Origin: Gemmatimonadaceae bacterium
GTDB lineage: Bacteria; Gemmatimonadota; Gemmatimonadetes; Gemmatimonadales; Gemmatimonadaceae
Reading direction: 5' to 3'
Length of the DNA: 64,000 nucleotides
NCBI GenBank assembly: GCA_036504815.1
Contig: DASXUN010000012.1
Span: 62,001-126,000 of the forward strand
Shown in pieces: positions 32,587-59,248 of this stretch (positions within the stretch are counted from its first letter, which is position 1; each line of letters opens with the position of its first letter). Made by a program: the position numbers and the translations under genes. The notes beneath the pieces were generated by a model. It did not search any database and was not told where the DNA came from. It saw only the letters and a list, made by a program, of their open reading frames with translations.

Positions 32587-34002
32587 GTGACGGGACTGTA
32601 CGGCGACAACACGGAATCGGGACCCCGGTGGACGGGCGCGGGGCAGGGCGATCGTATCGCGCCAATGAGGTCCGAGGCCGATTCGTCGGCGCAGTTCAAG
32701 TCGGCCGCGCTCCTCGCGTCACGCGAACGGCTCATCACGTTCACCGGTCGGGTCTTCGCCTTCGTCTGGGGTCCGGCGCTCGTGGTCGGCGCGCTGCAGT
32801 ATCTCGCCGTCGACCAGGCGCGCGCCGTCTCCGGTTTTGTGCAGGCCGGTTCCGCGTTCGTTGGCGCCGCGCTGCTCTGGCGGCCCTGGAAGCGCCGACT
32901 CGCGCAGCAGGCGATGGTGGGCATCGCGCTGCTGGTCCTGGGCGTCGCGATCGGCGTCTTCGCGGCCGGACTGACCGCGGGCAACGTGTCGGCATCGGCG
33001 CTCGCCGTGGTCTGGGCAACGCTCTTCTTCGGCGAGCGCGGACTGTGGAGCGTTTCGGGCGCCCTGCTGGTGCTCTACGTCGCGGCGGCGACGACGTTCA
33101 TCGGCAACGACGCGTCCGCGCAGCTGATGATTCAGCCCAACGAGTGGGGCTACTGGCTGCGCTACACGCTCGTCGCGCTCATCGGCGCGGTGCTGTCGGG
33201 ATTCGTGGTCCTCGCCGCGCGGCGGGCGTACGAGTCGATGCGCGTGCGCGAGTTCGACGCGCTGCAGGCGCGAAGCGCCGCGGAAACCGCGCGCATCGCC
33301 GCGGAGGCGCAGGCCGACACGCTGCAGCGCCGTCAGTTGGTCATCTCGCTCGTGACCGGCCTCGCCAAGGACATGCACGCGTTGCTCTCGCAGGACTTCG
33401 CCCGGATGCGATTGCTGCGCGACACCGCAACGGGGCGGGAGGAACGGCAGGCGGCGATCACGCTGCTCGCGAATGCCGAGCGGGCGCATCAGATGATGGC
33501 GGACCTGCTGACGCTCGGCCAGCAGACGCCGGACGGCGTCGAGGGATTCGATGGGGCGGGCGTCGTGAAGCGGATGTCGCTGCTACTGCGCGGCGCGATG
33601 CCGTCGCGGGTGGTCCTCACCGTGTCCAGCGAACGCTCGTGTCCGCTGTCGGGCGACGAACTGAAGTTCGAGCACGTCGTCACCGCGCTCGCGCTCTCCG
33701 CACGCACGGCGCTGTCGTCGGGCGGGGAGGTGCGCGTGCGTCTCTCGCGCGGCGCGGCCTCGATGGGACGCCTCGACGTGCGCCATTGCCCCAGCGGCGG
33801 CAACCCGGAATCCCCCGCGACCGACTGGACGACACTCAGGGCGGATGGCGAGCCGGTGACGCGCGAGTCGGAACTCGACACGGCGGTGCGCATCGTGGGC
33901 GAGGCGGGTGGGCGCGTGGAGGTGGGCCTGCACGACGACGGCGGCAAGACGGTGAGCGTCTTCTGGCCGTGGCAGGGCGCAGCGAGATACGTCGTGTCTT
34001 GA
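32587..34002 (+). CDS. Degenerate histidine-kinase-like membrane protein
   Basis: 471 residues. Five to six hydrophobic segments between about 55 and 210, a short coiled coil (residues 222-250), then a region that aligns by eye with the phosphoacceptor and HATPase parts of a histidine kinase but has lost the key residues. VTGLAKDMHALL (257-268) has Lys261 where GxAHDFNNLL kinases have His. ALALSARTAL (367-376) lacks the N-box Asn, and no DxGxG or GLGL box is seen. The start is GTG 32587 with GGAGAGGG upstream; ATG 32665 is an alternative. It probably senses or scaffolds rather than phosphorylates. Confidence 0.7.
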   Translation: MTGLYGDNTESGPRWTGAGQGDRIAPMRSEADSSAQFKSAALLASRERLITFTGRVFAFVWGPALVVGALQYLAVDQARAVSGFVQAGSAFVGAALLWRPWKRRLAQQAMVGIALLVLGVAIGVFAAGLTAGNVSASALAVVWATLFFGERGLWSVSGALLVLYVAAATTFIGNDASAQLMIQPNEWGYWLRYTLVALIGAVLSGFVVLAARRAYESMRVREFDALQARSAAETARIAAEAQADTLQRRQLVISLVTGLAKDMHALLSQDFARMRLLRDTATGREERQAAITLLANAERAHQMMADLLTLGQQTPDGVEGFDGAGVVKRMSLLLRGAMPSRVVLTVSSERSCPLSGDELKFEHVVTALALSARTALSSGGEVRVRLSRGAASMGRLDVRHCPSGGNPESPATDWTTLRADGEPVTRESELDTAVRIVGEAGGRVEVGLHDDGGKTVSVFWPWQGAARYVVS

Positions 34003-34027
34003 CGCTGACTGGCCGGGCATCTATAAT
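33999..34027 (+). promoter_or_regulatory. Near-consensus promoter of the rimP-nusA-infB operon
   Basis: TTGACG (33999-34004), a 17-base spacer and a perfect TATAAT (34022-34027). Its -35 box overlaps the stop codon of the upstream gene. Transcription should begin around 34033-34035, leaving a leader of about 78 bases before rimP. Confidence 0.9.
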
Positions 34028-34036
34028 ACTCAGGCT

Positions 34037-34055
34037 GGGCGGGTTCCATCCGCCC
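34037..34055 (+). promoter_or_regulatory. First leader hairpin of the rimP operon
   Basis: GGGCGG (34037-34042) pairs with CCGCCC (34050-34055) across a seven-base loop, only a few bases after the expected transcription start. Together with the following terminator hairpin it forms a compact, structured leader. Confidence 0.6.
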
Positions 34056-34058
34056 TGG

Positions 34059-34089
34059 AGATGTGGGGTAGCCCCCCACATCTTTTTTT
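34059..34089 (+). terminator. Intrinsic terminator in the rimP leader (probable attenuator)
   Basis: AGATGTGGGG (34059-34068) pairs perfectly with CCCCACATCT (34074-34083) across a five-base loop and is followed by a run of seven T (34083-34089) and a second T-rich run. It lies between the near-consensus promoter and the rimP start. Because the promoter is upstream, most transcripts should stop here unless read-through is allowed. Confidence 0.85.
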
Positions 34090-34111
34090 CTCTTTTTCGG
34101 ATTGAAATCAA

Positions 34112-34579
34112 GTGAAGCAGGCGCTGGAACCCATTGTTATTGCTGCACTTGACTCACTAGGGTTCGACCTCGTCGAGTTACGGATCGGTGGCACTCGCCA
34201 GCGTCCGTTGCTCGACGTGCGCATCGATCGCCGGGACCTGCAAAAAGTCACGGTGGACGATTGCGCCGGGGCGTCACGGGCCATCGAGGCGCGGCTGGAT
34301 GCAGATCCGTCGCTCTTCGGGGATCGTTACGTGCTCGAGGTGTCGTCACCGGGAATGGAACGGCCGGTGCGCACGGAGGGCGACTGGCGTCGCTTCACCG
34401 GGCGCCGGGCGAGTGTCAAGAGTGCGGCCCTCGGCGGACGCCTCGAGGTGGAGATCGTGGGCGTGACGGAGGACGCCGGCGCGCCGCGCCTGCACCTGCG
34501 CGACGCCAAGGGAGTTGAGCACGTGCTCGGGCTGGCCGACGTCGAAGAGGCCCGCCTGGTGTTTCACTGGAAACCGTAA
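34112..34579 (+). CDS. rimP: Ribosome maturation factor RimP
   Basis: A 155-residue RimP, needed for late assembly of the 30S subunit. LVELRIGGTRQRPLLDVRID, VTVDDCAGASRAIEARLDAD, YVLEVSSPGMERPVR and FTGRRASVK are typical. The GTG start at 34112 has no visible Shine-Dalgarno sequence, only the U-rich stretch of the upstream terminator. First gene of the nusA-infB operon, 11 bases before nusA. Confidence 0.94.
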   Translation: MKQALEPIVIAALDSLGFDLVELRIGGTRQRPLLDVRIDRRDLQKVTVDDCAGASRAIEARLDADPSLFGDRYVLEVSSPGMERPVRTEGDWRRFTGRRASVKSAALGGRLEVEIVGVTEDAGAPRLHLRDAKGVEHVLGLADVEEARLVFHWKP

Positions 34580-34590
34580 CGAGGTCGTGG

Positions 34591-35931
34591 ATGTCTGGAT
34601 CGGCTGAAATCCTTGCTGCCTTCCGAGAGCTGTCGAACTCCAAGCAGATCGACCGCGCGGAGCTGCACGCGCTGCTGCAGGACGGCATTCATGCCGCCCT
34701 GGCCAAGAAGCACGGGCCCAACGTTCAGGCCGACATCACGATCGACGAGGGGCGCGGCGAGATTCGCATCGTCCTGCTGAAGACGGTGGTGGCGTCGGTC
34801 GAGGACCCGAGCCGCGAGATCAGCCTCGAGGAAGCGCAGTTCGAGGATCCCGAGTTCGCGGTGGGCGACATCATGGAAGAGCCCGTCGAGTTCGCCGAGT
34901 TCGGGCGCTCCGCGGTGCAGGCGGCGAAGCAGCGCATCATCCAGCGGGTGCGCGAGGGTGAGCGCACCAAGATCCGCGACGAGTTCTCCGGGCGCGTCGG
35001 CGACCTGCTCTCGGGCGAGATCCAGCAGATCGAGCGCGGCAAGATCGTCGTGATGCTCAACAAGTTCCGCGAGGCGGAAGCGATCATTCCATACCGCGAG
35101 CAGAATCACCGCGAGGATTACAAGCAGGGCGAGCCCATCCGCTCGGTGCTCAAGAAGATCGAGGAGACGCCCAAGGGGCCGCGCCTCGTCCTCTCGCGCG
35201 CCGATCCGATGTTCGTGCAGGCGCTCTTCAAGCTCGAGGTGCCCGAGATCCAGCAGGGGATCGTCGAGATCAAGGCGGCATCGCGCGAGTGCGGCAGCCG
35301 CACGAAGATCGCCGTGGTGTCCAAGGACGATGCCATCGATCCGGTGGGCGCGTGCGTGGGCCTCAAGGGCGCGCGCGTGCAGGCCGTCGTGCAGGAACTC
35401 GGCGGCGAGCGCATCGACATCGTGCCGTGGTCGCCCGATCCCGAGCGGTTCGCCAAGCTCGCGCTGGCGCCGGCCAAGGTGGCGCGCGTCTTCAGCGACG
35501 CGGCGACCAAGACCATCCAGGCCGTCGTGGACGAGGACCAGCTTTCGCTGGCGATCGGCCGCAACGGGCAGAACGTGCGCCTCGCCTCGGAGATCACGGG
35601 GTGGAAGATCGACCTGTACTCGAGCCGCGAGTGGCTCGAGCGCGGGGGCGACATGCCGCTCTTCCAGCCGCTGCCGGACGACGACACCGCTGCCGACGTG
35701 CATCTGTCGTCCATCGAGGGTCTGCCGCCGGCGACGGTCGCGGTGCTCGAGGCGGGCGGCTATCGCACGCTGAACGACATTCTCGATCTCGAGCGCGACG
35801 ACTTCCTCCGCCTGCCGGGCATCGCGCCCGAGGAAGCGGATCGGATCATCGCGCTGATCAACGAGCTGACCACCGACGATGCGGGCGGCGAATCCGCGGG
35901 CGGCGATGCGGACGCTCCGGAGCCGGTGTGA
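34591..35931 (+). CDS. nusA: Transcription termination/antitermination factor NusA
   Basis: 446 residues. Order: N-terminal polymerase-binding domain (1-125), S1 domain (~130-200, with GDLLSGEIQQIERGKIVVML), KH1 and KH2 (~230-345: DPVGACVGLKGARVQAVVQEL and LSLAIGRNGQNVRLASEIT), and a C-terminal helix-hairpin-helix segment (LPGIAPEEADRIIALI). NusA slows elongation at hairpins and takes part in rRNA antitermination. Being encoded behind a terminator-containing leader, it may regulate its own operon; this is inference. Confidence 0.97.
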   Translation: MSGSAEILAAFRELSNSKQIDRAELHALLQDGIHAALAKKHGPNVQADITIDEGRGEIRIVLLKTVVASVEDPSREISLEEAQFEDPEFAVGDIMEEPVEFAEFGRSAVQAAKQRIIQRVREGERTKIRDEFSGRVGDLLSGEIQQIERGKIVVMLNKFREAEAIIPYREQNHREDYKQGEPIRSVLKKIEETPKGPRLVLSRADPMFVQALFKLEVPEIQQGIVEIKAASRECGSRTKIAVVSKDDAIDPVGACVGLKGARVQAVVQELGGERIDIVPWSPDPERFAKLALAPAKVARVFSDAATKTIQAVVDEDQLSLAIGRNGQNVRLASEITGWKIDLYSSREWLERGGDMPLFQPLPDDDTAADVHLSSIEGLPPATVAVLEAGGYRTLNDILDLERDDFLRLPGIAPEEADRIIALINELTTDDAGGESAGGDADAPEPV

Positions 35932-35941
35932 GCAGGGGCAG

Positions 35942-36268
35942 ATGATGGACGCCGCGCTGCGCCGACGACTGCTGGGGCTTGCCGGCCTGGGGGTGCGCGC
36001 GCGCAACGCGGTGGTGGGCGTCGATCAGGTGCGGGCCGCGGCCCAGAGTGGCGAGCTGCGGGTGGCGTTGGTGGCGGAGGACGTGTCGCGGCACAGCCGC
36101 GACAAGGTGGTGCCGCTGCTGGCGGCGAAGGGTATTGCAGTGCTGGACGGGTTCACGGCGGCCGAGTTGGGCGCCGTGGCCGGGCGGGACGCGACGGCGG
36201 TGATCGGCATTGTCGACGCACAGTTGGCGAAAGGAATTCGCGGGGCGCTCCGCCCCGCGGGCGAGTAG
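35942..36268 (+). CDS. YlxQ-like L7Ae-family RNA-binding protein
   Basis: A 108-residue protein with the L7Ae/L30e fold pattern (LGLAGLGVRARNAVVGVDQVR, LRVALVAEDVS, VPLLAAKGIAVLDG). It sits between nusA and infB, where Firmicutes have ylxR-ylxQ; ylxR is missing here (10-base gap after nusA). Two adjacent ATG codons (35942, 35945) are possible starts. It probably binds kink-turn RNA in ribosome biogenesis; no direct evidence for the target. Confidence 0.8.
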   Translation: MMDAALRRRLLGLAGLGVRARNAVVGVDQVRAAAQSGELRVALVAEDVSRHSRDKVVPLLAAKGIAVLDGFTAAELGAVAGRDATAVIGIVDAQLAKGIRGALRPAGE

Positions 36269-36286: not shown

Positions 36287-39118
<2,832 letters not shown>

Positions 39119-39140: not shown

Positions 39141-39533
39141 ATGCCGCCGCGTGACACGCGCCGCCCCGACCGGGTGGCCGAGGGCATTCGGATGGAGGTC
39201 GCCACGTTCCTCGCCGGCGACGTCAAGGATCCGCGCGTCCGCGGCGCGCTCGTGACCGTCACCGCCGTCGAGGTGACGCGCGATCTCGGGCACGCCACGG
39301 TCTTCGTCTCCATCATGGGCAGCGACGCCGAGCGGGACTCCGCGCTGGAGGGGCTCGCGAGCACCACCACGCACCTGCGCGCCCGCGTCGGGCGCGCGCT
39401 GCGCTTGCGCGTCGCGCCCGAGATCACCTTCCGGTACGACGAGAGCGTGGCGCGCGCGGCGCGCATCGAGACGCTGCTGGCTTCCGTCCGCCCGACGGAC
39501 GCACCCGGCGATGGCTCCCCGTCCGGCGCCTGA
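39141..39533 (+). CDS. rbfA: 30S ribosome-binding factor RbfA
   Basis: A 130-residue KH-like protein for maturation of 16S rRNA. RVAEGIRMEVATFLAGDVKDPRV is split by nature into RVAEGIRMEVATFL and KDPRVRGALVTVTAVEVT, followed by HATVFVSIMGSD and LRLRVAPEITFRYDES, the family's C-terminal signature. GGGGAGG precedes the ATG. It overlaps truB by 23 bases. Confidence 0.94.
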   Translation: MPPRDTRRPDRVAEGIRMEVATFLAGDVKDPRVRGALVTVTAVEVTRDLGHATVFVSIMGSDAERDSALEGLASTTTHLRARVGRALRLRVAPEITFRYDESVARAARIETLLASVRPTDAPGDGSPSGA

Positions 39534-48486: not shown

Positions 48487-48583
48487 GGGGGTGGAGGGGG
48501 CCTGGTGGTCCTCCTGGTCTTCAAAACCAGTGCGGCCTGACTTGGTCAGGCTGGGTGGGTTCGACTCCTACACACTCCCGCCA
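48487..48583 (+). tRNA. selC: tRNA-Sec (anticodon UCA)
   Basis: A 97-base selenocysteine tRNA with encoded CCA (48581-48583). Anticodon arm CTGGT-CTTCAAA-ACCAG with anticodon TCA at 48521-48523. An extended D stem closes a four-base loop. The long variable arm has a perfect 7-bp stem (GCCTGAC/GTCAGGC, 48535-48541 with 48545-48551). A 5-bp T stem holds the loop TTCGACT. The acceptor stem (48487-48493 with 48573-48579) has seven pairs, one G-U; the eighth position (G48494, A48572) does not pair. Discriminator base is G, as in other tRNA-Sec. Its placement right after selD is a coherent selenium cassette. Confidence 0.95.
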
Positions 48584-53411: not shown

Positions 53412-53485
53412 CGGGGCGTAGCGTAGCCCGGTATCGCGCCTGCTTTGGGAGCAGGAGGTCGCCGGTTCGAATCCGGCCGCCCCGA
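53412..53485 (+). tRNA. tRNA-Pro (anticodon UGG)
   Basis: A 74-base cloverleaf. Acceptor CGGGGCG/CGCCCCG, anticodon arm CCTGC-TTTGGGA-GCAGG with TGG at 53446-53448, T arm with GGTTCGAATCC. The discriminator is A and CCA is not encoded. Confidence 0.96.
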
Positions 53486-53554
53486 TGGTGTGCTCCAAGT
53501 GGAATGCGAGACGGCGGGGGAAGCATGCCGGGTGCGGTGAAGGGGAGGAGCTCA

Positions 53555-53628
53555 GCGCCAGTAGCTCAGGTGGATAGAGCAACAGCCTTCTAAGCTGTGG
53601 GTCGGGGGTTCGACTCCCTCCTGGCGCG
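53555..53628 (+). tRNA. tRNA-Arg (anticodon UCU)
   Basis: A 74-base cloverleaf. Acceptor GCGCCAG/CTGGCGC, anticodon loop CTTCTAA with TCT at 53589-53591, T loop GGTTCGACTCC. CCA not encoded. Confidence 0.96.
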
Positions 53629-53715
53629 CTTCGCGGAAGTGGTGATGGCGGTTGTTGTTGTCTGTTTTTTCTCTGTTGTCTTTCTGTTGTTTGTCTGTAG
53701 TTTTCTGTAGTATCC
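53629..53715. other. T/G-rich spacer between tRNA-Arg and tRNA-Lys
   Basis: A low-GC stretch of repeated TGTCTG, TGTTGT and TTTTCTGTAG-like units in an otherwise GC-rich genome. No hairpin precedes the T runs. It may be a processing or pausing region in the tRNA precursor. Confidence 0.5.
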
Positions 53716-53788
53716 GCACCCATAGCTCAACTGGCAGAGCAACAGACTCTTAATCTGCAGGTTGTAGGTTCGACTCCTACTGGGTGCA
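53716..53788 (+). tRNA. tRNA-Lys (anticodon CUU)
   Basis: A 73-base cloverleaf. Acceptor GCACCCA/TGGGTGC, anticodon loop CTCTTAA with CTT at 53749-53751, T arm with AGGTTCGACTCCT. The first anticodon-stem pair is mismatched (A-C). CCA not encoded. Confidence 0.94.
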
Positions 53789-53791
53789 CTG

Positions 53792-53827
53792 AGGCCGTCG
53801 CGGATGGTTGCGACGGCCTTTGTTTTT
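53792..53827 (+). terminator. Terminator of the tRNA cluster
   Basis: AGGCCGTCGC (53792-53801) pairs perfectly with GCGACGGCCT (53810-53819), followed by a T-rich tail (TTTGTTTTT). Confidence 0.9.
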
Positions 53828-54037
53828 GGGGTTGGCGGGGTGGGGCGGCGTGGCGGATGAAAATCGGTATCAGAGTTCCGCAATTGATTCGTATGACGGG
53901 GCTTGCGCGGCCGACTCTAGTATGCTACTATACCCCTCCTCACGAGAACGGCGTTCTTGTGGAGGGTGGTGCCGCGGGCCCGCGAGGGCCCGTTCGTGTC
54001 GGCGGGAAGAAGTGGCGCGGAAGTTACGCGACAACAG

Positions 54038-54066
54038 TTGACACGGGGCACACATCGCAGTATAGT
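54038..54066 (+). promoter_or_regulatory. rRNA operon promoter
   Basis: Consensus TTGACA (54038-54043), 17 bases, TATAGT (54061-54066). Transcription should begin about 54073, giving a leader of some 190 bases. A weaker candidate (TTGCGC, 17 bases, TACTAT; 53903-53931) lies upstream. Confidence 0.9.
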
Positions 54067-54206
54067 TAAAGGCTGTCGCGGAAAGCGCGACGATGAGCTG
54101 ATTGATAATCGAGATGAGATCACTGTAGGGTGTGCGAGGCGATCGCTTTGATCCGGGCCCGTTCGGGGACCCGGGGAGCGATCAACCCGAACCTAAATAC
54201 AAGTGA

Positions 54207-54249
54207 TTCCGAACACGCTGTCACGCGACAGCGTGACAGCGTTTCGGAA
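54207..54249 (+). promoter_or_regulatory. Long leader hairpin just upstream of 16S
   Basis: A 19-bp stem with one bulged C (54214): TTCCGAA plus ACGCTGTCACGC pairs with GCGTGACAGCGT plus TTCGGAA around the loop GACA. Its 3' part also belongs to GGAAGAGAGCT (54246-54256), which can instead pair with AGCTCTTCC in the 16S-23S spacer (55833-55841). Confidence 0.8.
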
Positions 54250-54265
54250 GAGAGCTGACAAACAC

Positions 54266-55789
<1,524 letters not shown>

Positions 55790-56064
55790 ACGGAGCAGCG
55801 AGTAGGCCGGGTCTTCGGACCGCGGGCACGAAAGCTCTTCCTGGAAGTCGCCGCCTCGCATCACCCTGATCTCATCTCGATTTTCATATTGTGGGTTGGC
55901 GCCGCCCCTCGGGGCGGCGCGCAGCACCCCCGCTGTTTGACAATGGAACGAGAAGTGTTCGTGGGAAAATGAATCTCACTGAAGTGAATCGCTGAAGCGC
56001 CTCGCAAGAGGCAAAGCAGTATTCACTCGTTGTAGATCGCGCGTGCTCTGCTTGACAGATATGT
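55790..56064 (+). other. 16S-23S internal transcribed spacer without tRNA genes
   Basis: About 275 bases. No tRNA-Ile or tRNA-Ala, unlike many bacteria. It contains AGCTCTTCC (55833-55841) for 16S processing, a GC-rich hairpin (GCGCCGCCCC-TCG-GGGCGGCGC, about 55900-55922), a boxA-like CGCTGTTTGACA (55931-55942) and the left arm of the 23S processing stem (55941-55963). Confidence 0.85.
55941..55963 (+). repeat. Left arm of the 23S processing stem
   Basis: CAATGGA, two unpaired bases, then GAGAAGTGTTCGTG. It is complementary to 59095-59116 on the far side of 23S. Such stems are cut by RNase III. Confidence 0.88.
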
Positions 56065-59020
<2,956 letters not shown>

Positions 59021-59094
59021 CTCCCAATCGCCCTCGAAAGAGGGCCTTCGCAGAGCATTCGCGACACAACGCGTAAACAGTCAGATTCACCACA

Positions 59095-59116
59095 CACGAA
59101 CACTTCTCCTCCATTG
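59095..59116 (+). repeat. Right arm of the 23S processing stem
   Basis: CACGAACACTTCTC, one unpaired base or two, then TCCATTG; complementary to 55941-55963. The arms close a loop containing the whole 23S. Confidence 0.88.
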
Positions 59117-59127
59117 TCTCCAATTCG

Positions 59128-59242
59128 CTGGCGATTAGAGCGTCAGGGCCACACCCGTTCCCATTCCGAACACGGTCGTTAAGCCTGACAGCGCCGATGG
59201 TACTCCGCCCGAGAGGGCGCGGGAGAGTAGGCCGTCGCCGGC
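59128..59242 (+). rRNA. rrf: 5S ribosomal RNA
   Basis: About 114 bases. Terminal helix CTGGCGAT/GTCGCCGG, the conserved CCCGTTCCCATTCCGAACACGG split as CACCCGTTCCC and ATTCCGAACACGG, and GATGGTACTCC. Ends are uncertain by one to three bases. Confidence 0.95.
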
Positions 59243-59248
59243 ACCCCT

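Follow-up and report, generated by a model that had tools for sequence, protein, structure and literature searches.

A conserved attenuator-like leader of the rimP-nusA-infB operon in the Gemmatimonadota

The rimP-leader motif was published in 2010 by Naville and Gautheret, who called it the most ubiquitous attenuator, reported no antiterminator for it and named feedback by NusA as the best candidate mechanism, with RimP also mentioned (PMC2965389). In Streptococcus agalactiae, termination in the 5' UTR of rimP takes place 31 nt past the start site (PMC4448216), and in Bacillus subtilis the depletion of NusA is reported to have pointed to NusA-stimulated termination within the leader of the nusA operon itself (Mondal et al. 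2016, as cited in PMC12288461). For Escherichia coli, experimental support for NusA feedback is given through the references cited in PMC2965389 and PMC4448216.

Here we describe the leader of this operon in a member of the Gemmatimonadaceae, in a window (the whole stretch of DNA analysed) of 64,000 nucleotides, and follow it through the family and the phylum. The known but little-tested attenuator class is thereby extended to the Gemmatimonadota, a poorly studied phylum, where its exclusive linkage to rimP is strongly supported by comparison. What is added to the class is a phylum-wide survey, the distinction between a frozen core and a freely changing first hairpin (HP1), and a set of minimal variants.

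The operon and its predicted leader

The operon genes lie on the forward strand and follow, by Pfam, the order RimP, NusA, L7Ae-like protein, IF-2 and RbfA: rimP with a GTG start (34112–34579; RimP_N, E 9.6e-17), nusA (34591–35931; NusA_N and KH domains, E 8e-33), an L7Ae-like gene in the YlxQ position between nusA and infB (35879–36268; E 6.4e-06), infB for translation initiation factor IF-2 (36287–39118; E 2.3e-38) and rbfA (39141–39533; E 5.1e-31). RimP itself seems shortened to ~97 residues in one genus (locus L070; genomes G030, G055, G076 and G090), each of the four genomes seen having a stop past the N-terminal domain, and in a second genus (g17) the RimP match covers the N-terminal part only. 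Elsewhere the window holds a selenocysteine tRNA gene (48487–48579) and, at 53412–59243, three tRNA genes and, behind them, a single 16S-23S-5S rRNA cluster.

On its own strand rimP is preceded by a sigma-70-type promoter, TTGACG-N17-TATAAT (33999–34027), which carries 11 of the 12 consensus bases, with the -35 box at 33999–34004, a spacer of 17 nt and the -10 box at 34022–34027. It is the one promoter-like site in the surrounding 2 kb, where shuffled sequences gave 0.0 (sd 0.2). An upstream ORF (32587–34002), co-directional with rimP, has its TGA stop (34000–34002) inside the -35 box, and the gene ahead of rimP in one order-level relative (L101) also appears to have its stop inside that box. 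From the promoter spacing we infer a transcription start site at 34033–34035, so that the mRNA of rimP-nusA-infB would have a predicted 5' leader at 34033–34111 on the forward strand and the terminated form of the RNA would be ~55 nt long, ending at about 34089. For the leader RNA the predicted fold energy is -33.2 kcal/mol (z -2.98).

Within this leader the predicted intrinsic terminator, AGATGTGGGG-UAGCC-CCCCACATCT followed by U7, occupies 34059–34089 on the forward strand. The arm AGATGTGGGG (34059–34068) pairs with CCCCACATCT (34074–34083) in 10 perfect pairs around the loop TAGCC, the first T of the T7 run (34083–34089) forms the last stem pair, and the start codon of rimP lies 22 nt past the run; the stem can be counted as anything from 9 to 12 pairs, depending on which basal A-U and G-U pairs are included. 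A G-rich 5' arm, a C-rich 3' arm and a T-stretch, features of the rimP-leader motif, are found in the window. Two sites in the 2-kb scan are terminator-like, where shuffled sequences gave 1.0 (sd 0.9), a hairpin count that is not significant alone, and the element before rimP is the only strong one of them (12 pairs). We judge the terminator to be real because of the folding z-score and, above all, its conservation, and not on the site count.

Between the predicted start site and the terminator lies HP1, a small hairpin GGGCGG/CCGCCC with a 7-nt loop at the 5' end of the leader (34037–34055, forward strand). HP1 is paired in 8/8 leaders of the genus, and because the changes within the genus are G-C/G-U only, it is weakly supported in any single genus and supported across leaders as a group: its region outdoes shuffled sequences in folding over 48 leaders of the family (Stouffer -8.5), and a control stretch upstream of the promoter gave -2.0 in the same comparison. 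Its sequence differs between genera (about 0.2 bits per base). HP1 precedes the terminator in the family of the window and in some other lineages, and it is missing in several more, where the terminator hairpin begins 6–13 nt past the -10 box; HP1 is real in several lineages and stands outside the universal core. The HP1 loop GGGTTCCA (34041–34048) is complementary over 8 nt to the rimP codons TGGAACCC (34125–34132), which we take as chance, since relatives change the loop and the complementarity is not kept. An earlier note on this DNA had claimed the TTGACG-N17-TATAAT promoter, the perfect 10-bp hairpin with T7 ending 22 nt before rimP, and the first hairpin at 34037–34055; all three are borne out by the sequence, HP1 with the restriction just given.

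Conservation in the family and across the phylum

Among 148 genomes of the Gemmatimonadaceae, RimP was detected in 134, and a strict terminator pattern (GTGGGG, 1–8 nt, CCCCRCAYY, T5) occurs in 117, once in each and never more than once per genome, with no match in any of them to a reversed control pattern. All but one of these matches (116/117) share the strand of rimP and lie no more than 200 nt upstream of it, at a median distance of 29 nt by blast match, and the remaining one sits 57 nt from a contig end. The rimP-bearing genomes without the strict pattern that were checked (13/13) carry a variant terminator, either with one T fewer or with compensating changes in the stem, for example ACGTGGGG/CCCCACGT or GTGGGC/GCCCAC. 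A counterpart of the terminator is present in 70/70 sampled family loci, one of which (L036) has a compensated G-C to C-G swap, and the arrangement of promoter, terminator and rimP is kept throughout the family. In 48 family leaders the promoter counterpart keeps the 17-nt spacer in 46 and scores at least 8.5 in 40, a score reached by 3.1% of shuffles; the distance from the -10 box to the stem is usually 32–40 nt, and 47–59 nt in a smaller set, one genus among them.

With one leader taken from each of 25 genera, information content is 1.83 bits per base in the 5' arm and 1.50 in the 3' arm with the U-tract; the arm value is somewhat inflated, as some stem positions are set by the search expression itself, though only 1/26 loci failed the expression. 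The flanks in the same 25 genera hold 0.20 bits per base in the 30 nt upstream and 0.16 in the 20 nt downstream. The conservation of the terminator is far beyond chance.

Most rimP loci elsewhere in the Gemmatimonadota also have a counterpart of the terminator. Across 129 terminators of the phylum the three central pairs are G-C in 127, 128 and 129 respectively, and the apical pair is G-C in 113 (the window included) and C-G in 13, while the flanks of the stem covary, one position being T-A, T-G or C-G and another T-A, A-T or G-C. What is conserved is pairing plus a fixed sequence core, GGG:CCC. Three loci (L086, L121 and L118) have no clear rimP-leader terminator in the 150 nt before rimP, and one of these may have a misassigned rimP start. 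A pattern scan over genomes of many phyla gave at least 124 matches, at least 23 of which precede rimP or nusA; among the matches listed, every one before rimP with a record title shown comes from the Gemmatimonadota, and the others resemble ordinary terminators.

The survey also brought out compact forms. In several order-level relatives the terminator hairpin begins about 10 nt past the -10 box and the U-tract ends 0–2 nt from the rimP start codon; in L101, L104, L108, L113, L114, L137 and L138 a U8 tract lies 0–2 nt before the ATG, and the whole 5' UTR is essentially the terminator hairpin. Termination and translation initiation may there be competing for the same few bases. No space is left for a promoter between the U-tract and the gene, so that in these relatives rimP mRNA made by read-through of the terminator seems unavoidable, and this need for read-through speaks for an attenuator and not only a terminator of the upstream gene.

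Proposed attenuation and the candidate factors

The attenuator-like leader proposed in the earlier note is well supported by its retention throughout the family, its exclusive placement before rimP and the seemingly unavoidable read-through in the compact relatives. The feedback by NusA that the note put forward as a hypothesis is a reasonable reading with precedents. The reading that we favour, and consider probable, is that of a rimP-leader attenuator at which NusA most likely raises termination. Polymerase would start ~7 nt past TATAAT, make HP1 and then the strong GUGGGG/CCCCAC hairpin with U7; a fraction of the polymerases would stop at U7 and release the ~55-nt RNA, and the remainder would enter rimP-nusA-infB. 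NusA, itself a product of the operon, would raise termination at this site, and plentiful NusA would thus mean less transcription of its own operon. Termination in vivo is presumably partial, and we infer NusA as the effector in this organism by analogy. At a site so near the promoter, the timing with which NusA takes the place of sigma on the polymerase may also matter.

Two other ways of controlling such a terminator found no support. When the 5' arm was folded with the upstream leader, the 3' arm not yet made, its pairing was 0.40 against 0.58 in shuffled leaders, and no antiterminator was found in this test. A leader peptide of the trp/his type was rejected as well: a frame with an RTG in the terminator stem often continues to rimP, but among 69 leaders its register relative to rimP splits 30/20/19 and the peptides differ. 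With neither antiterminator nor leader peptide, a protein acting on the terminator is favoured.

Which protein this would be is the matter on which the main alternative turns. The attenuator could sense chiefly something other than NusA, be it NusG, RimP, another RNA-binding protein, temperature or the general elongation rate, and we regard this as the less likely reading. The stem keeps its sequence more strictly than pairing alone would require, which suggests that it is recognised by something, and the contrast with the freely changing HP1 narrows what that would be; RimP was already a candidate for Naville and Gautheret (PMC2965389). Counting against NusA, the hairpin here is strong and its U-tract is interrupted only distally, whereas in B. 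subtilis a terminator that depends on NusA tends towards a weak hairpin or a U-tract with interruptions (PMC12288461). The basal A-U pairs and the distal interruption of the U-tract, features tied to NusG too in the B. subtilis model, would by that analogy fit NusG as much as NusA (PMC8060035). On the other side stand the published experimental cases of B. subtilis and E. coli, which, as far as the sources cited above report them, indicate NusA. One could tentatively imagine the GYGGG:CCCRC hairpin as a sequence-specific protein-binding site, for the RNA-binding domains of NusA or for RimP, and so as terminator and receptor in one. The compact natural variants in which the U-tract abuts the start codon offer simple templates for deciding among NusA, NusG and RimP.

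Far less probable is a housekeeping terminator that serves the upstream gene only, with rimP driven by another promoter. The gene ahead of rimP runs in the same direction in the window and in 55/68 relatives by a crude longest-ORF test, as such a terminator would have it, but the terminator has the only good promoter on its upstream side, at a nearly fixed distance in relatives, the order-level relatives leave no room between U-tract and start codon, and a frozen sequence before rimP is unlike an ordinary terminator. Least credible of all is that the ~55-nt terminated RNA is a functional small RNA with attenuation secondary, for although a short RNA with two stable hairpins and a U-tail would be stable, the HP1 sequence (about 0.2 bits) is unconserved between genera and other lineages lack HP1 altogether, which leaves little for base-pairing with targets.

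Relation to known rimP leaders

By position, structure and core, the window element belongs to the general rimP-leader class. It shares with that class the G-rich 5' arm, the GGG...CCC core, the T-stretch and the place directly before rimP-nusA-infB, as well as the absence of an antiterminator and the variable distance to the start codon (PMC2965389). Of the motif core GGGc(...)gCCC, the GGG/CCC part is present, and the lower-case c and g occur only in some relatives. It departs from the class in that the fourth apical pair in the family of the window is mostly G-C and not C-G, and in that the family stem has a fixed extension, (A/G)TGTGGGG, with a lineage-specific HP1 ahead of it. The element is outside the Rfam family RF01770, which models the gammaproteobacterial form: RF01770 has no match in the window at the gathering threshold (47 bits) or at E values up to 10, and none in five relatives, while the E. 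coli K-12 control scored 102 bits.

The E. coli leader has the same gene position, and its last hairpin in K-12, GGGC-UUUAG-GCCC followed by U7, shares the GGG:CCC core; E. coli differs in having metY and a further terminator upstream. The leader of S. agalactiae likewise has a short promoter-proximal terminator before rimP-nusA-infB (PMC4448216). In the window HP1 adds ~25 nt, for a predicted termination at ~55 nt, whereas those relatives in the Gemmatimonadota that lack HP1 have the short form, as in S. agalactiae. The autoregulation of the B. subtilis nusA operon, as presented in PMC12288461, is by analogy the mechanism that we propose for the window element.
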